Below are positions 351-16,369 of a stretch of DNA of 49,414 bases, piece after piece; position 1 is the stretch's first letter, and every line of letters starts with the position of its first letter. The stretch is taken from the NCBI GenBank assembly GCA_020720045.1, contig DYPH01000031.1, positions 1 through 49,414 on the forward strand. Reading direction: 5' to 3'. The stretch is from Sorangium cellulosum (GTDB taxonomy: Bacteria; Myxococcota_A; Polyangia; Polyangiales; Polyangiaceae). The notes beneath the pieces were generated by a model, which had not been told where the DNA came from, did not search any database, and saw only the letters and a program-made list of their open reading frames with translations. The position numbers and the translations under genes were made by a program.

Positions 351-2258
351 ATGAAACGCCCGTCCATGCTCGCCCTCCCCCTCTCTGGCCTCCTCGCAGG
401 ACTCGTCGCGTGTGGGGGCGGCGAAGCGAAGCCGCCGGTGACCAAGCCGGTCGTCGATACGCCGAAGCCGATCGCGATCGACACGTCTGCGGTCGCCGCC
501 CCGGCGGGCCTCGCCGCTGAAGGCCACGCCACCTCTGCCAAGGCGTTTTTTGACGTCGCTCGCGACTGGTTCAACGCCCCGGTTCCGGGCGGCGACAAGC
601 TCTCGCGCGACTTCGTCGGCGCCGACGTCGGTGACCTCCTCGACCCGTCGGCCCCCGTCGACTTTGCCGTTCAGATGGATGAAGGTCAGCTCGTCCCCGC
701 GTATGCTTTTGGTTCGACCGTCAAAGCCGGGATCGACGTAAAGGCTGCATTCGCCAAGGGATTTGCGGCGAAAGCCGGTGAGAATGGCTCGACTCTCTTC
801 GAGAAGAAGGTCGACGCCGCCGACGACGAAGGGGACGACATCGTCCGTTCGTCCCGCGTCTGCCTCGCTTGGCAGGCGGCGCTGACCGACCGCACGCGCC
901 TCGTTTGTGGCTCCCCGGCGGGCGTCAAGGCGCTCTCCGCCTACATCGTGAGGACCCTGCCGACGAAGGCGTACGCGTCTGACCTCCACATCGACGTCTT
1001 TGTGAACCACATCCAGAAGCCGTTGAAGATGGGGCTCAACCTCGCGAAGGGGCAGCTCCCGCCCGGCCTCGGCGACGGCCTCGGTGACGTCGGCCAGCTC
1101 CTCGGCGACGTTGGGAAGCTCTCGATCGACGGCAAAATTAATGGAGATCGCATCGACGGCGGCCTCCACCTCACGTTCACCAGCGCAGAAAGCAAGGCCG
1201 GGAAGGCCTTCGTCGAGAGCCAGGCGCGCACCGCCCCGGCACCGGCCGCCTTCTACAAGCTGCCCGTCGATGTCGATGCCGCGTTCTACACGCAGGGCAT
1301 GGGCGGCGACGGAGCCATGCTCGATCAGCTCTTCAGCAAGCGGCCGGGCATCAGCGACCTCTTCAAGGGGAAGGTCAAAGACCTGCTCAAGAAGCCGGTC
1401 GTCCTCGGCCATGGTGTCGACCTCGTCGCCGCCAAAGCAGCCGTCGATGCCGTCGCCGCGGAGAAGGACGAAGTCAAGAAGATCACCGCGCAGGCGAAGG
1501 CCCAGTCGGCGTTTGACGGCTACTTTGCGGTTCGCTTCGAAGAGAAGTCGGACACCGTAAAGGCCCTCGTCGACGAGGCGAACAAAGTCTCCGAAGACGA
1601 GCGCAAAGCCCACGAAAAGGCCGACGCAGCGAAGGCGAAGGAAGCCAAGGACGCGTCGCGCCCCGTCCGCCCGATGATCGTCGAAAAGACGACCACCTCG
1701 CCGGAAACGTTCGGGCTCCCCAAGGGGACGGTCCACTACATCCGCACGACGACGGTCACGACGGTTGGCGCGCCGGGCCGGGTGGAAGACGCGCCGGCGA
1801 AGGGGCAGAAATCGCCGCCGAAGCCCGTTTCGAAGCCGCCGGTCAAGGTGACCACCGAGAAGCACGTGTTCCTCGTTCCGGACGGCGCTGCGACCTGGGC
1901 CTACGTCGGCGCAGATCCCAAGGGGCTCTCGGAGACGGCGAAGAAGGTCGTCGGGGCCGACAAGCCGCTCGCCGCTCGCGCAGGCCTCGATGTGATCACC
2001 AAAGGTGTTGCAAATTCAGGTGGTTTCGTGACGCCGAAGTTCTTTGCCGTCGTCGATTCGGTCGGCCCGCGCCACGTCTACTCCCAGAAGGGAGTGACCG
2101 CGGAAGCGATCGCCCGCGTCAGCCGCCCGATCGCCGACACGCCGATCCCGGTCGCCGTCCGCGCGACGAAGCCGGAAGCCGACGCGCCGAAGGGCGTCTA
2201 CGAACTCGTCATGCAGCTGCCGAAGGCGGCCGTCGACGCCCTCGTCCGCAAGCCCTGA
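351..2258 (+). CDS. predicted lipoprotein, paralog of the next gene
   Basis: A 635-residue secreted protein of unknown function. The N-terminus is a lipoprotein signal: two basic residues, a hydrophobic core, lipobox LVAC with the modified cysteine at about residue 21, then a Gly/Pro-rich linker. The mature part is Ala/Lys/Asp-rich with a charged stretch near residues 410-430. It shares its plan with the downstream 627-residue lipoprotein: an acidic patch followed by a Trp and Cys (CLAW here, CWLA there), then RLVCG/RLFCG and a helix leading to a phenylalanine-rich block. The similarity is remote but collinear, so I read the two as an old tandem duplication. A strong terminator follows, so it is probably its own transcription unit. 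Confidence 0.75.
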   Translation: MKRPSMLALPLSGLLAGLVACGGGEAKPPVTKPVVDTPKPIAIDTSAVAAPAGLAAEGHATSAKAFFDVARDWFNAPVPGGDKLSRDFVGADVGDLLDPSAPVDFAVQMDEGQLVPAYAFGSTVKAGIDVKAAFAKGFAAKAGENGSTLFEKKVDAADDEGDDIVRSSRVCLAWQAALTDRTRLVCGSPAGVKALSAYIVRTLPTKAYASDLHIDVFVNHIQKPLKMGLNLAKGQLPPGLGDGLGDVGQLLGDVGKLSIDGKINGDRIDGGLHLTFTSAESKAGKAFVESQARTAPAPAAFYKLPVDVDAAFYTQGMGGDGAMLDQLFSKRPGISDLFKGKVKDLLKKPVVLGHGVDLVAAKAAVDAVAAEKDEVKKITAQAKAQSAFDGYFAVRFEEKSDTVKALVDEANKVSEDERKAHEKADAAKAKEAKDASRPVRPMIVEKTTTSPETFGLPKGTVHYIRTTTVTTVGAPGRVEDAPAKGQKSPPKPVSKPPVKVTTEKHVFLVPDGAATWAYVGADPKGLSETAKKVVGADKPLAARAGLDVITKGVANSGGFVTPKFFAVVDSVGPRHVYSQKGVTAEAIARVSRPIADTPIPVAVRATKPEADAPKGVYELVMQLPKAAVDALVRKP

Positions 2259-2282
2259 TCGTCTCGGCGCAGCCACGCCGAC

Positions 2283-2325
2283 GAGCGCCGCACCCCGTTT
2301 TCGGGCTGCGGCGCTCTTTTTTTTT
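2283..2325 (+). terminator. strong intrinsic terminator
   Basis: A perfect 10-bp stem (GAGCGCCGCA with TGCGGCGCTC) encloses a second CCCG-TTTT-CGGG stem and is followed by nine T residues. It lies 24 bases after the stop codon of the upstream lipoprotein gene. Confidence 0.9.
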
Positions 2326-2365
2326 CGACGATCGCCCGACAAAGCCGCGGTAGCCTCCCGCGTCC

Positions 2366-4249
2366 ATGCGCGCCCTCCGAACGATCTCCGCCGCCCCCCT
2401 TGTCACGATCCTCCTCGCCTGCGGCCATACCCCGCCGAAAGATCCTAGCGACGGAAAGGCGGAGGTGGACGTCACGGCAAAGCACGTCACCACGGAGCCG
2501 ACGAACGCGAAGGTCGAAATGCCTCATCTTTACGGCTACGTCCGCTTCGACCACCCCCGGAAGAGCATCGCCCAGGTTGCCGGCTCCCTCGCGCTCCCGA
2601 TCGGACCGACCCCCGCCCAGATCGTCGCGCGCGCCCTCGATGCGGAAGAGCGCCTCGCCGACCTGATCGACTTCGATGCACCGATGGAAGGGTTCCTCCT
2701 CCCCTTGGAACGGAAGGACGAGAAGGAAAGCGCTGCAGCGATCTCGTCGGTCGGCGTCACTTCCTTTGAGGAGGCCCGCACCGCGATGGAGCACGGCGGC
2801 AAGAAGCTCGTTGCCGATGCATCTGGCCTTTTTCATGTTGAAAAAGAAGCAAAAACAGACAGTTCTGAGGACGAAGACTGGGCACGAACGTGCTGGCTCG
2901 CGCCGGCTCGTGCCCCGCGTGGTGCTCGGCTCTTTTGCGGACGTGCGTCCGACCTCGAAGTCCTTGCGAGCACCGTCGCAAGCGCCCCCGACCATCCGTC
3001 GGCCGCCGACTTCCATGGCGAAGTCTATGGGAACTCCTTCCAAGGGGTCTACCGGGCGCTGGTGGCGAAGAATGCCCGCTACGACCGCCAAATGGACGAA
3101 GGGGAAAAAGCTTTTCTTGCGGAAGTTCAGGCTCTTGGTGGGGATTTGGAGCGGCTTGATGTCGACATCACCGCCGATGCATCCGGCTACCGCGGCGTGA
3201 TGACGGCGCGCGTCGCAGCGGCGAAAGGGGCGCTGGCAAAGACCTTCACCCACGTCGACAAAGTGGCGCTGCCGCCGGCAGTATTCCGCGCATTCCCGAA
3301 GGAAGCCTCCGTCGCCGCCTACTGGCAGGGGAACGCGGCCGACGACCTCCTCGGCCCGAAACAGGGCGTCCTCGCGACCTTTCGGAAAGCAGTCAAAGAA
3401 GACCCGCTCCCGCCCGACCTCGAAAAGGCGTCGGCCGATGCGATCTCCTCGATTTTTGGGATGTCGGCGCGCCCGACGGCGCTCGCGTTTGGGGCCGACG
3501 GCAAAATTCTATACACGGCCCTCGCGAAGCTTGATGCGGTAAAAACCGACAAGGACCGCGACAGCGCGGTGGGCGACTTGGCGAACGCGTTCTGGTTTGA
3601 AGCCTGGAATGGGGAGGTGCCCGCAGTCACCCTTGCCGCCGCGAATGCCTTCCGGGACGTCGCGAAGAACTCGGCGAAAAAACACGCTAAAGACGAGTAC
3701 CGCCAAGAAGTGAAGGACCTGACCATCAAGGCAGGCGAGCTGCCGAAGGAGGCAATTGCCTTCCAAATGGTCAGTATCTACCCGTCGTACGCGGCGCCGG
3801 TCCGCGGAAAAGGGCCTGCGAAGCCGGCGCCGACTCGCGAGGAAAAGCCGGTGATTCTTCTCGTGCCGGCATTTGGCGGGACGGCGATGATCGTGACCAA
3901 GACGCTCCCAAGCGCGGTAGCCCGCGCCAAGGAACTCCTTGCGCCGAAGGCGGGCAGCACCCTGGCCGATCGGAGCGACCTCGCCACCGTCTTGGCGACA
4001 CCGACGCTCGCCTCCGGGTTTTTCACCCCGAACCTCGGCATCGTCGCTGCCAGCGAACGGATGCGGTGGGCGCCCCCCGGTACGGCCGGATCGCTTCGTA
4101 CGAAGGTCAACCAGCCCGATTTCCAGATCCCGACCGTCTTCACGGTGCTGCCGTCCCCGTCGCGAGGGGATGGCGCGAAGGCGGGCATCGTCGAGTTCCG
4201 GGGCGTCATGAGCCAGAAGGTGGTCGACGCGTTCACCGGCCTGTTCTGA
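2366..4249 (+). CDS. predicted lipoprotein, paralog of the preceding gene
   Basis: A 627-residue lipoprotein of unknown function. The signal has lipobox LLAC with the cysteine at about residue 19, followed by a Pro/Lys-rich linker. No enzymatic motif is apparent. Its middle shares the CW / RLFCGRASDLEVLAS arrangement with the preceding gene. Both proteins have a late segment beginning with a hydrophobic strand (ILLVPAFG here, HVFLVPDG there) followed by a helix rich in Ala and Lys, and both end with a short strand-helix element. A TAGCCT hexamer at 2351-2356 ends 9 bases before the ATG and could be the -10 of a short-leader promoter. The terminator just upstream indicates independent expression from its paralog. 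Confidence 0.75.
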   Translation: MRALRTISAAPLVTILLACGHTPPKDPSDGKAEVDVTAKHVTTEPTNAKVEMPHLYGYVRFDHPRKSIAQVAGSLALPIGPTPAQIVARALDAEERLADLIDFDAPMEGFLLPLERKDEKESAAAISSVGVTSFEEARTAMEHGGKKLVADASGLFHVEKEAKTDSSEDEDWARTCWLAPARAPRGARLFCGRASDLEVLASTVASAPDHPSAADFHGEVYGNSFQGVYRALVAKNARYDRQMDEGEKAFLAEVQALGGDLERLDVDITADASGYRGVMTARVAAAKGALAKTFTHVDKVALPPAVFRAFPKEASVAAYWQGNAADDLLGPKQGVLATFRKAVKEDPLPPDLEKASADAISSIFGMSARPTALAFGADGKILYTALAKLDAVKTDKDRDSAVGDLANAFWFEAWNGEVPAVTLAAANAFRDVAKNSAKKHAKDEYRQEVKDLTIKAGELPKEAIAFQMVSIYPSYAAPVRGKGPAKPAPTREEKPVILLVPAFGGTAMIVTKTLPSAVARAKELLAPKAGSTLADRSDLATVLATPTLASGFFTPNLGIVAASERMRWAPPGTAGSLRTKVNQPDFQIPTVFTVLPSPSRGDGAKAGIVEFRGVMSQKVVDAFTGLF

Positions 4250-12628: not shown

Positions 12629-14575
12629 ATGACGATTCTTCAGGTCGCCAACCTCCGCTACGGCTTCGCAGGCGGAACGCTCTTTCGCGACGTCACCTTC
12701 TCGCTTGCCGCCGGCGAACGCGCGTCGCTCGTTGCTCCGAATGGGGCGGGAAAATCGACGCTTCTCCGCTGCATCATGAAGGAGATCGAGCCCGAGGAGG
12801 GGACGGTCGTCATCCGGAAAGAGGCGAAGATTGGCTACTACCGCCAGTCCCACGAAGTGAAGCCGATTGGCGACGTCCTCGGCGCTTTCCTTAGTGGATT
12901 CGGCAAGATTGTCGCCCTTCGTGACGCCCTAGAGGCGGCCCAACACGCCGCCCACGACGGCTCCGAGGAGAGCCTAAATCGGCTCGCTCGCCTCCACGAT
13001 CAATGGATCATTGAAGGGGGGGACTCCCTCGAGCACAAGGTCGCTTCGATCGCGCTTCAATTGGGCTTCTCCGATGCCGACCTCGCACGCCCGGTTGCCA
13101 GTCTCTCCGGTGGCGAGCGCGGGCGCTTGTCGCTCGGGACGATCCTCGCTCAGGAGCCCGACTTTCTCCTCCTCGACGAGCCGACGAATCACCTCGATCT
13201 CGACACCATTGGGTGGTTGGAAGGGTATTTGAAGGGCTTCAAGGGGGCGGTGCTTCTCGTGAGTCACGACCGTGCCTTCCTCGACGCGACCACGAACCAC
13301 ACCTTCGAGCTCGGTACGCGCGGTTTGCGAAGCTATCCGCTCGCCTACAGCGACTACATTGAGGCCCGCGAAGAGGACCTCGCGCGCGAAGAGGCGAAGA
13401 AAGAGCGTCAGGACGCCTTTGTCGCAAAGACCGAAGACTTCATTCGTCGAAACATCGCCGGTCAAAAGACGAAGATGGCCCAGGGGCGTCGCAAGATGCT
13501 TGAGAAGCTCGATCGGATCGACGGGCCGGAAGACGTATGGAACAAGGCGGAGCGCGTTGCTTTCCGCTTTGTCCCCGCGGCGCGGAGTGGCGACATCGTC
13601 CTCGAGGCCAACGCTCTTGGGGCGGCCCGCGGTGGGCGCCCCCTCTTTTCCGGCGTCGATCTTCTCGTCCGCCGCGGCGAGCGCATCGGCATCGTCGGCC
13701 CGAACGGGGCAGGGAAGTCGACGCTCCTCAAGCTCCTTGCCGGTCGCGGTCATTCAGAAGATCGCGGTGCCGTCAAACGCGGAACTAACCTTCAGGAAGG
13801 CTATTTCGATCAGCACCTTGGGGAGATCAATACGGCGCGAACGGCCGTCGAGGAGGTGCGCAGCGTACGCGGAGACTTTACCCCGGAGAAGGCGCGTGAA
13901 TACCTCGCCCGATTCCGTTTTTGGGGGGACGACGCGCTCCGATCGACGGCCGGTTTCTCCGGCGGCGAGCGGTCCCGTCTCGCCCTCGCGAAGATGCTCT
14001 TGGAGCCGAAGAACCTGCTCTTCCTCGACGAGCCTACGAACCACCTCGACATCCCGGCCGCAGAAATCCTTGAAGAAGCGCTGGTCGGTTTTGACGGGAC
14101 CGTCCTCCTCGTGAGTCACGATCGCCGCTTCTTGGAGACGGTGACGACGCGCCTGGTGATCGTCCGCGACGGCCACGTTGACATTTTCCCGGGCGGTTAT
14201 GCCGACTTCGTCGCTACCAAAGAGCGCCAGAAAGCAGAAGCGGAAGCGCGCGCCGCCGAAGAGCGGGCCGCCCTCGAAAAGGCGAAGCGAAAGTCGATGG
14301 CGCCTCCGTCGGAGAAGGCGAAGCCGACGGGGAACTACGAAGACAACAAGGCGAAGTCACGCGATCGCGAAAAGAAACAACGGCGTTTGAAAGAGGTCGA
14401 ACAGCTCGTCGAGAGCGGTGAAGCCCAGCTCGCGACGCTCCGCGAGGACCTCAAGCAGGATCCGGGGGGCGACTGGGCCAAGATCGCGACGATGGCGAAA
14501 GAGGAGCAGGCGCTTGCCGCCCGCGTTGAGCAGCTCCTAGAGGAGTGGGCAACGCTCGCCGAGGAACTTGCCTGA
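12629..14575 (+). CDS. ABC-F family ATPase
   Basis: 648 residues with two ATPase cassettes and no transmembrane segments, the hallmark of ABC-F proteins, which bind ribosomes and rescue or tune translation. The first Walker A is APNGAGKST at about 36-44, with signature LSGGERGR and Walker B LLLDEPTNHLD. The second cassette has GPNGAGKST, FSGGERSR and LFLDEPTNHLD. Both catalytic glutamates are present. The inter-cassette linker is rich in Lys/Arg/Glu (AGQKTKMAQGRRK). The C-terminal ~100 residues are a charged coiled coil like the Uup C-terminal domain. The TGA stop overlaps the next ATG (TGATG), so the glutaredoxin-like lipoprotein is translationally coupled. A Uup/YdiF-type role is likely; an antibiotic-resistance role cannot be excluded. 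Confidence 0.93.
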   Translation: MTILQVANLRYGFAGGTLFRDVTFSLAAGERASLVAPNGAGKSTLLRCIMKEIEPEEGTVVIRKEAKIGYYRQSHEVKPIGDVLGAFLSGFGKIVALRDALEAAQHAAHDGSEESLNRLARLHDQWIIEGGDSLEHKVASIALQLGFSDADLARPVASLSGGERGRLSLGTILAQEPDFLLLDEPTNHLDLDTIGWLEGYLKGFKGAVLLVSHDRAFLDATTNHTFELGTRGLRSYPLAYSDYIEAREEDLAREEAKKERQDAFVAKTEDFIRRNIAGQKTKMAQGRRKMLEKLDRIDGPEDVWNKAERVAFRFVPAARSGDIVLEANALGAARGGRPLFSGVDLLVRRGERIGIVGPNGAGKSTLLKLLAGRGHSEDRGAVKRGTNLQEGYFDQHLGEINTARTAVEEVRSVRGDFTPEKAREYLARFRFWGDDALRSTAGFSGGERSRLALAKMLLEPKNLLFLDEPTNHLDIPAAEILEEALVGFDGTVLLVSHDRRFLETVTTRLVIVRDGHVDIFPGGYADFVATKERQKAEAEARAAEERAALEKAKRKSMAPPSEKAKPTGNYEDNKAKSRDREKKQRRLKEVEQLVESGEAQLATLREDLKQDPGGDWAKIATMAKEEQALAARVEQLLEEWATLAEELA

Positions 14576-14949
14576 TGAAAAAAATCTTGAAACTTCTGCC
14601 AATTGCGGCCTTTCTCCTCGCGGGGATCGCCTGCAGCAAGCGGGAGACGCCGGTGGCCAAAGCGGTCAAGCCGGCCGCCTTGGTGCACACGCATGCGGGG
14701 GAGAAGCGAGCCATCGTCTACGGCGCCGACTGGTGCGAGGCGTGCCACTTGGCTGGAGCGTGGCTTACGAGCCACGGCTACACGGTGATCGACCGGGATA
14801 TCGAGAAGGAGCGTGATGGCGCCGAGGCGATGCAGGACGCTCTCGACGCGGCCGGCCTGACGTCGCCCGGCATCCCGGTGATCGAGCTTGAAGGGGCGGT
14901 CGTCCTCGGCTTCGACCAGAAGAAGCTCGAAAAAATTACTGCGAAATAG
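14575..14949 (+). CDS. glutaredoxin/thioredoxin-like lipoprotein
   Basis: 124 residues. A lipoprotein signal (MKKILKLLPIAAFLLAGIAC, cysteine at 20) precedes a thioredoxin-fold domain with CxxC active site WCEAC (Cys54, Cys57), the helix-strand DWC...GYTVIDRDIEKE arrangement and the cis-proline element GIPVIE. It would be a thiol-disulfide reductase or oxidase anchored at the membrane facing the periplasm. Its start overlaps the ABC-F stop. I choose the ATG at 14575 because it opens directly onto the signal peptide; a GTG 30 bases upstream gives no sensible leader. Pairing a ribosome-associated ATPase with a periplasmic redox lipoprotein is odd and may simply be operon economy. Confidence 0.8.
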   Translation: MKKILKLLPIAAFLLAGIACSKRETPVAKAVKPAALVHTHAGEKRAIVYGADWCEACHLAGAWLTSHGYTVIDRDIEKERDGAEAMQDALDAAGLTSPGIPVIELEGAVVLGFDQKKLEKITAK

Positions 14950-14954
14950 GCAGT

Positions 14955-15539
14955 TTAGTGTGCATGTGTCGCGCAGTCGCAACTTGCCGCGCCCCGGTAG
15001 GTTGCGCAGCAAGGGCCGCAGCTGCTTGCGAGCGCTTCTCGGAGCGTAGTGCGTGCACGATGCAAGCGAACCGAGGCGGCGTTCGCCCCCAAGCCGAGGG
15101 ATCGCGCTGCCTCGGAGACGCTGCTGTCCCCGGCGTCAACGGCGCGCACGAGGGCCGCCGTCGCCGGAGAGAGCGTCTTCTCCACGAGGGGTTGAAGACA
15201 CTGACAGCCCATTTCTGGCGATAGTTCGGGGACTTCCGTCGGGATAGACTCCGCGATCGCCTCCACATCGACGCGTGACCGACCGTCGGTGGCGCGGGCG
15301 GCCGCCCCGCGGTGGGCGTCAATATGTGCATTCTTCACGATTCCAAAGAGCCACGCCCGGAGGTCGACGGGAGCCGCAAGCGAGGCCGCCCCGCGGGTGA
15401 GCGCTTCGAGGGCGCGCAGGGAGGCGGTCTGGACGACGTCTTCCGCCTCGGCGTCGTTCGCCCCCCGACGGCGCAAGAAAGCGAGGAGCGCCCCCCGATC
15501 GGCGGTGAGCAGAGCGGCAAGGCGCTCCTCGGCACTCAT
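14955..15539 (-). CDS. ECF sigma factor with Cys-rich C-terminal tail
   Basis: 194 residues from the ATG at 15539. Sigma region 2 is at about 10-80 (DAEAEDVVQTASLRALEAL, then DLRAWLFGIVKNAHIDAHR) and region 4 at about 122-170 (a SVSEAARSLGLGANAASVRLHRAR helix-turn-helix). Cysteines are confined to the linker (C112, C114) and a 25-residue tail after region 4 (C174, C177, C178, C187, C189, with His192 and His194). Known CorE-type ECF factors of Myxococcus sense copper through a C-terminal Cys-rich domain without an anti-sigma factor; the same layout suggests direct metal sensing here. The start overlaps the stop of the Cys-rich peptide gene (ATGA), so the pair is translationally coupled. The metal is not predictable. 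Confidence 0.88.
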   Translation of the reverse strand: MSAEERLAALLTADRGALLAFLRRRGANDAEAEDVVQTASLRALEALTRGAASLAAPVDLRAWLFGIVKNAHIDAHRGAAARATDGRSRVDVEAIAESIPTEVPELSPEMGCQCLQPLVEKTLSPATAALVRAVDAGDSSVSEAARSLGLGANAASVRLHRARTTLREALASSCGPCCATYRGAASCDCATHAH

Positions 15540-15739
15540 CGGGCGCACCCGCAGCCGGTCGAGGTACTTTTCTCACAGCATTTGCAGGGGTTGCAGGTGC
15601 AGCCGTCGCAGGCGCAGGTGTCGCTTCCACTCGCGGCATCGGCAGTCTCCGGCGTGGCCGGGCGATCGCAGCACCCCGGCTCACACCTGCAGTCGGTGCA
15701 CGAACAGGAACAGGAACGAACTTCGTCGTTGGATTTCAT
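15536..15739 (-). CDS. metallothionein-like Cys-rich peptide
   Basis: 67 residues with 16 cysteines (24%), arranged as CxC and CC pairs in two clusters (residues ~10-25 and ~43-65) separated by an Ala/Thr/Asp linker. There is no aromatic residue and no histidine. Two cysteine clusters without aromatics is the classic metallothionein composition, although the sequence matches no family I can name. A GGAG ribosome-binding sequence sits 7 bases before the ATG at 15739. The stop codon overlaps the start of the Cys-tailed ECF sigma factor, pointing to a coupled sensor/buffer pair. GTAACC on the minus strand (15772-15767) could be an ECF-type -35, but I see no convincing -10. A RiPP precursor is the alternative reading. 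Confidence 0.8.
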   Translation of the reverse strand: MKSNDEVRSCSCSCTDCRCEPGCCDRPATPETADAASGSDTCACDGCTCNPCKCCEKSTSTGCGCAR

Positions 15740-15871
15740 GATGATTCTCCGGAAGTGCCGTGGGGCGGTTACCCCCCTGCGACGGAGCGACGCTTGGCGA
15801 TCTTACGTCACCGCGGGTCGATTCTGCGATTCCGGCTCCCCACGCCAAAACGTACGCCGTATCTTCCGCCG

Positions 15872-16369
15872 ATGTATCGACAAGGCGCCTTACCGAAAGG
15901 GGCTTGCCCCCGCTGTTTTGCCCCGCTCAATGCGATCGCCCTCGGCGCGTTCCAGGCACAGGGCTGCCGAATATGCGGTGGGATTTTTGCCGACAATGCC
16001 CTTTCGAGCCGGATCACGAGCATCCTCGATCGGACGATCGTTGCCGACGCTTTTTCCCATGCGGCGCGCAAAGCGGCGCAACCCCTCGATTTGCACGGGC
16101 CCAAGTTGTCGTGCCCGGAGTGTTCCCTCGCGATGCTCCCGAACTATGTGCAGGCCGCGAATGCTCGGGTCGATGCCTGCGCGGAGCACGGAACCTTCTT
16201 TGACGCCCACGAACTCGAGGCGGTGAGCCGTGCCTACCGGCGGCGGCGTGAGGCTGGAGTTCCCCAGGCGCCGCGCACGACCCCGTCGTTGCAACGAACG
16301 ATTGAATCGTCGGAAGCGGGCCCTGTCGAAGTGGGCATCTGGCAGCTGTTAGCGAGTCTTCTCAAGTAG
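15872..16369 (+). CDS. zf-TFIIB domain protein
   Basis: 165 residues from the ATG at 15872; the frame is open for 39 more codons upstream but the extra sequence looks non-coding. It has two zinc-binding units: CPRC...CRICGGIF near the N-terminus, and CPEC...CAEHGTFFDAHELEAV, which is the zf-TFIIB signature (a Cys pair followed by C-x-x-HG-x-F/W-x-D-x-x-EL). The C-terminus is Arg-rich then short and polar. Such proteins are common in myxobacteria and have no defined role; zinc binding or interaction with nucleic acid is presumed. TATCTT at 15860-15865 ends 6 bases before the ATG and may be the -10 of a leaderless transcript. Confidence 0.75.
   Translation: MYRQGALPKGACPRCFAPLNAIALGAFQAQGCRICGGIFADNALSSRITSILDRTIVADAFSHAARKAAQPLDLHGPKLSCPECSLAMLPNYVQAANARVDACAEHGTFFDAHELEAVSRAYRRRREAGVPQAPRTTPSLQRTIESSEAGPVEVGIWQLLASLLK

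Follow-up and report, generated by a model that had tools for sequence, protein, structure and literature searches.

A gene for a small, cysteine-rich, metallothionein-like peptide overlaps the gene for a CorE-type ECF sigma factor on the minus strand of the stretch of Sorangium cellulosum DNA analysed here (contig DYPH01000031.1, 49,414 nucleotides, hereafter the window), and this combination is conserved and, as far as could be searched, apparently undescribed. We consider it probable (about 0.72) that such a pair forms an autoregulated, metal-activated CorE-type circuit, the output of which would be a metal-sequestering peptide. CorE-type sigma factors had hitherto been tied to metal export or oxidation, and a conserved sub-branch now appears to be wired to a putative sequestration peptide; this offers a natural comparison between pump-linked and sponge-linked sigma factors.

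Gene Pair in the Window

The following features were assigned in the window:

15536..15739, minus strand: metallothionein-like peptide gene, first of the pair (67 aa, 16 Cys; open reading frame, no Pfam or NCBIfam match)
15747..15750, minus strand: GGAG, likely ribosome-binding site of the peptide gene, proposed from the sequence
15536..15539, minus strand: ATGA overlap between the peptide stop and the sigma start, kept in the congener
14955..15539 (stop codon 14955-14957), minus strand: CorE-type ECF sigma factor, 194 aa (Pfam, alignment with CorE-type factors, tree)
15198..15206, minus strand: CxC (C112, C114) in the linker between regions 2 and 4, invariant in alignments A1 and A2
14958..15020, minus strand: C-terminal Cys-rich domain, residues 174-194 (C174, C177, C178, C187, C189 and two His)
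15781..15806, minus strand: candidate sigma-dependent promoter GTAAGATC-N-CGTC upstream of the pair, a weak match to the family consensus

The peptide, MKSNDEVRSCSCSCTDCRCEPGCCDRPATPETADAASGSDTCACDGCTCNPCKCCEKSTSTGCGCAR, contains 16 cysteines among its 67 residues and lacks F, W, Y and H altogether, a composition typical of metallothioneins as a functional class (small, about one quarter to one third Cys, with CxC and CC motifs and few or no aromatics). A chance origin of this reading frame was ruled out, as 16 is the maximum number of cysteines in any 67-aa stretch of the six frames of the window, and the corresponding maxima in 20 first-order Markov copies of the window were only 6-9. The first-pass annotation had described a 67-residue peptide with 16 cysteines and no aromatics, its ATGA overlap with the sigma gene, a sigma tail with five cysteines and two histidines, and a linker CxC. 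Each of these elements was found again in the reading frames, on the minus strand, which had been left unstated, the peptide TGA and the sigma ATG both lying within 15539-15536. This overlap likely couples the translation of the two genes.

The sigma factor matched Pfam Sigma70_r2 (E 1.5e-9) and, more weakly, the region 4 model PF08281 (21.9 bits, below the cut-off of 25.7; E 1.4e-4). It aligned end to end with CorE-type relatives, with regions 2 and 4 and no further sigma domain. The CorE-type group is characterized by a C-terminal Cys-rich domain with four invariant cysteines, at positions 181, 184, 192 and 194 of CorE, the tail of which has the spacing C-x2-C-x4-C-x2-C-x-C with Cys189, the main activating residue, in the middle (PMC3107203). 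Both this domain and the linker CxC are essential for CorE-type activity, and the Cys pattern sets metal specificity (PMC8999054). In the window sigma factor, the tail of which reads SCGPCCATYRGAASCDCATHAH, the four invariant cysteines are kept as C174, C177, C187 and C189, equivalents being assigned via motif spacing with the numbering of PMC3107203, as CorE itself was outside the alignment. Together with the linker CxC, they uphold the earlier CorE-type assignment (PMC3107203, PMC8999054). Compared with CorE, the window tail has no equivalent of Cys189, an extra cysteine (C178) and longer spacing; most sister sigma factors have the pattern C-G-T-x-S-x-x-x-C-x-x-C-x-C, often followed by GCC, and thus keep Cys189 and lack Cys184. 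Since the patterns differ in this way, metal specificity is not readable from the sequence.

The pair adjoins no anti-sigma gene. Its neighbours are a convergent gene for a lipoprotein-like glutaredoxin/YruB-family protein (YGADWCEACH; 14575-14949, plus strand), which ends 5 bases from the sigma stop, and a divergent gene for a TFIIB-type zinc-ribbon protein (PF13453; 15755-16369, plus strand), which shares its intergenic region with the pair and probably starts in fact near 15872 rather than 15755.

In the congener, another genome of the genus with 92% DNA identity over the locus, both reading frames and the ATGA overlap are kept, and the peptide carries an in-frame 12-base insertion. No other close relative was found by single-sequence search of genome contigs. 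Between window and congener, the sigma gene has a dN/dS of approximately 0.10-0.13. For the peptide, this ratio spans 0.33 (NG86) to 0.68 (YN00) according to method, and constraint on the window peptide is therefore modest; cysteine was kept in 14 of 19 aligned Cys columns, which is looser than in other close pairs. Purifying selection nevertheless acts on most of the peptides compared: NG86 dN/dS was 0.10-0.33 in six of eight close pairs, with almost complete retention of cysteines in five of these six (e.g., 14/14, 15/15, 7/7), and the two others (0.64 and 0.69) involved very few differences or an unsure alignment.

Occurrence of the Pair Among CorE-Type Loci

Searching for the same pair in other genomes had been proposed as a check in the first-pass annotation, and this search bore out its conservation, lending support to the metal-homeostasis module suggested there. 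CorE-type sigma profiles were run on 379 Myxococcota, 297 Acidobacteriota and 289 Verrucomicrobiota genomes, and plasmid matches from Alphaproteobacteria and Nitrospirota were added (five phyla in all). A Cys-rich reading frame of 22-93 aa was found directly upstream in 44 of the 129 CorE-type sigma loci, from three phyla, compared with 1 of 50 ordinary Myxococcota ECF genes without a Cys tail, that single locus being SigZ-like. Under a strict pairing rule (at least 8 Cys, at least 14% Cys, 28-100 aa, no more than 420 nt upstream), 30 of the 81 Myxococcota loci were paired, and 29 after removal of L043, the apparent peptide of which was an Arg-rich chance reading frame inside an ATPase gene. 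By phylum, the paired loci comprised these 29 and one MerC-interrupted locus among the 81 of Myxococcota, 13 of 29 in Acidobacteriota and 1 of 13 in Verrucomicrobiota. Relaxing the rule added seven Acidobacteriota mini-peptides of 22-26 aa, and the controls gained nothing beyond the SigZ-like locus. Peptide and sigma genes are closely spaced in most pairs, and gaps of tens to hundreds of bases occur in many. No description of the pairing was found in the literature that could be searched.

Some individual loci deserve mention. The seven Acidobacteriota mini-peptides (L133, L134, L135, L136, L138, L145 and L146) contain 6-8 Cys upstream of CorE-type sigma genes and are so short that gene callers could overlook them. 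In the paired peptide of L100, the two Cys-rich ends are separated by a hydrophobic stretch that resembles a membrane span. In L091, the gene order is peptide-MerC-sigma, with the gene for the MerC-family membrane protein at 2222-2863 (plus strand), which points to Hg, Cd or Zn over Cu in that lineage. No common neighbour gene was found across the paired loci, as the 63 neighbouring reading frames fell into many families, with MerC in two cases and Cad in one.

Peptide Family

No known metallothionein, Pfam or NCBIfam family could be assigned to the peptides: the window peptide and its 35 companions matched no Pfam model at E 0.01, including the bacterial SmtA/BmtA family PF02069, and likewise no NCBIfam model, and one core peptide searched against the PDB gave no match. 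A family absent from these libraries is thus at hand, with an obvious and testable role. Its conserved core is CCCGxxCxCGxxCxC. The window peptide matched the core profile weakly (0.4 bits, with 1 of 300 shuffles as good), its congener was equalled by 57 of 300 shuffles, and the family profile search of 284 Myxococcota genomes at E 1e-4 did not report the window peptide. The latter thus owes its placement to its position, composition and context, and not to demonstrated homology.

This same profile search (284 Myxococcota genomes, E 1e-4) matched 15 genes, of which 14 coincide with CorE-type sigma loci. The fifteenth (L234) is distant from the sigma gene of its genome and is preceded, approximately 50 bases before its start codon, by GTAAGAATTGCAGGACCGCTACCGTC, which has the GTAAGA-N-CGTC form of the family promoter (see below). 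The existence of this copy, alone behind that promoter, argues for the peptide as an output of the sigma factor rather than a mere leader of the sigma gene.

Promoter

A common motif, TGTAA[G/T]-N16/17-CGTC[A/T], was found upstream of the peptides. With a spacer of N15-17, TGTAA[G/T]-CGTC was present in 18 of the 30 paired Myxococcota loci (0.03 expected from shuffles) and 5 of 7 paired Acidobacteriota loci, and in none of 49 unpaired control ECF loci; a wider pattern was similarly absent from 139 kb of control loci. Across the CorE-type loci, the promoter precedes 33 peptides, 6 sigma genes and other genes. Among 28 of the latter that were scanned, 16 encode P1B-type ATPases matching CopA models, and HMA-domain proteins, a multicopper oxidase and a cupredoxin were also found behind it, so that part of the regulon is readable from this common promoter. 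GTAAG occurs mostly in the peptide-linked branch and GTAAT mostly in other Myxococcota loci. Autoregulation is well supported for the family.

At the window locus, autoregulation is only suggested, by GTAAGATCGCCAAGCGTCGCTCCGTC (15781-15806), which scores highest within the 250 nt upstream and has C for T before GTAA. This site went unlisted when the motif had been trained on TGTAA sites; the motif was therefore retrained with that base free, and the site is accordingly labelled weak. It scores 6.3 bits, versus at least 13 for training sites, 24 of 98,708 window positions score higher, and a match as good would arise by chance in 250 nt in approximately 6% of cases. The site is kept in the congener with one spacer difference. 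A wider regulon in the host genome was sought and rejected: GTAAGA-N-CGTC gave 15 matches versus 30 for the reversed control, nearly all others lay in long open frames, and no other convincing target of this motif was found in that genome. The looser GTAAT pattern gave 91 matches there.

Position in the Tree and Peptide Versus ATPase Wiring

In a first tree, the window sigma factor fell within a Myxococcota set of 28 rows, 23 of them paired, with an SH-aLRT of 96, this set having been named only after that tree had been seen. In a more careful tree, a 32-row set holding the window sigma factor received 97/89, and the 28 rows as one clade were not rejected. The window lineage lies on a long branch, and its exact position is therefore unsure. 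Within the conserved combination, the pair of the window is a divergent representative.

At no more than 1.5 kb from the sigma gene, the 129 loci carried both a peptide and a P1B-ATPase in one case, a peptide only in 43, an ATPase only in 50 and neither in 35, ATPase signatures being detected via sequence motifs and not full profiles. This exclusion gave a raw Fisher p of 1.5e-11, and of 2.3e-7 outside the clade, for counts that are not independent; a tree-aware paired test never went in the opposite direction and gave a median p of 0.5, with too few independent pairs. The peptide would apparently be an alternative to the usual metal export pump, soaking up the metal.

Proposed Mechanism and Alternatives

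From a mechanistic point of view, the sigma factor would bind a soft metal (Cu, Zn, Cd or similar) that has reached the cytoplasm, via its Cys tail and its linker CxC, and may thereby become competent for promoter binding, and the holoenzyme would then transcribe the peptide-sigma operon. The thiol-rich peptide, encoded by the first gene, would bind the metal and lower its free level, upon which the sigma tail would release its own metal and the response would reset. For related sigma factors the usual output is a P1B-type export ATPase, expressed from a promoter of this kind, and in the branch of the window the adjoining output would be a metal sponge. What the computations support is that the two genes are paired and conserved as such, that most of the peptides compared are under purifying selection, that relatives share the promoter and that it precedes ATPase genes in other CorE-type loci; metal binding, the identity of the metal, autoregulation at the window locus and the feedback step are what we infer. 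Made up of just one peptide, one sigma factor and one promoter, such a circuit would suit a simple metal-responsive switch.

Another explanation is that the peptide regulates the sigma factor directly, by thiol exchange with the Cys tail or as a metal-gated anti-sigma factor, buffering being secondary. Tight linkage, the translational overlap in the window and the close spacing of most pairs are in line with this, as is the absence of an anti-sigma gene beside both the window pair and the CorE-type factors surveyed in PMC3107203. We nevertheless consider it unlikely, as CorE and CorE2 are reported to act via their own tail and CxC (PMC8999054), such a peptide is absent from 85 of the 129 loci, and the unlinked gene of L234 fits an output better than a partner. 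The Cys-rich reading frame could also be a leader, translated according to the cysteine available and thereby adjusting how much sigma factor is made, its own product being functionless. Short, Cys-dense frames directly upstream, the stop/start overlap in the window and the Acidobacteriota versions of only 22-26 aa are what such a leader would look like; however, protein-level constraint and the conserved core, the wide gaps in many pairs, the location of the promoter ahead of the peptide, and a solitary copy that has a promoter to itself yet is followed by no sigma gene make this very unlikely. Least probable of all is a peptide acting as a thiol/redox buffer or an iron-sulfur/persulfide scaffold, with a sigma factor sensing thiol stress instead of metal, since, although Cys-rich proteins can have redox roles and a glutaredoxin/YruB-like lipoprotein gene convergently adjoins the pair, in sister CorE-type loci the same promoter stands ahead of genes for CopA-type ATPases, HMA proteins, a multicopper oxidase and a cupredoxin, MerC lies between peptide and sigma in L091, and one Cad-family gene is among the scanned neighbours.

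Beyond the sequestration circuit that we favour, a more speculative and rather doubtful extension would be that CorE-type factors of Myxococcota, Acidobacteriota and Verrucomicrobiota come in two wirings, with either an ATPase or a mini-metallothionein family, and that in the latter the peptide and the sigma tail are partners in direct thiol exchange, the peptide being both output and off-switch. If true, this pair would constitute a metal homeostat without pump or repressor.

Comparison With Known Systems

The window sigma factor shares with CorE and CorE2 of Myxococcus xanthus the linker CxC, the C-terminal Cys-rich domain and the lack of an adjoining anti-sigma gene, none having been reported next to the CorE-type factors surveyed (PMC3107203). 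As in those systems, metal genes lie behind the promoter, as seen in the CorE-type loci of relatives. The CorE/CorE2 group is the former ECF44 and ECF238 in the newer scheme, in which CorE itself is unclassified (PMC8999054). The differences are that the targets of CorE are efflux, oxidase and HMA genes, whereas the gene linked to the window sigma factor encodes a metallothionein-like peptide, and, as regards the tail, that the sister branch departs from CorE by its lack of Cys184 and often by the extra GCC.

Like SmtA/BmtA, NmtA (PF02069) and MymT, the peptides are small and Cys-rich, of a presumed cytosolic metal-thiolate type and under putative metal-responsive control; unlike them, they match no Pfam or NCBIfam model. 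SmtA types are moreover controlled by SmtB/ArsR repressors, not by a sigma factor as would be the case for the CorE-linked peptides: NmtA is indeed under an SmtB/ArsR-type repressor (PMC8790569), and MymT is controlled by RicR (PMC10141476).

Among the shortest members, the Acidobacteriota peptides of 22-26 aa (6-8 Cys) have the spacing CxC-x3-CxC. This spacing looks like that of fungal-type copper metallothioneins (Neurospora, Agaricus), which they resemble in this respect only, with no claim of homology. Lastly, three SigZ-like ECF sigma factors (L025, L149 and L178) have tails with Cys and Cys-rich small reading frames of their own adjoining, with 15 Cys in 79 aa and 8 Cys in 40 aa upstream and 8 Cys in 49 aa downstream. 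These frames are CC-spaced, unlike the CxC type, and possibly represent a second, convergent pairing.
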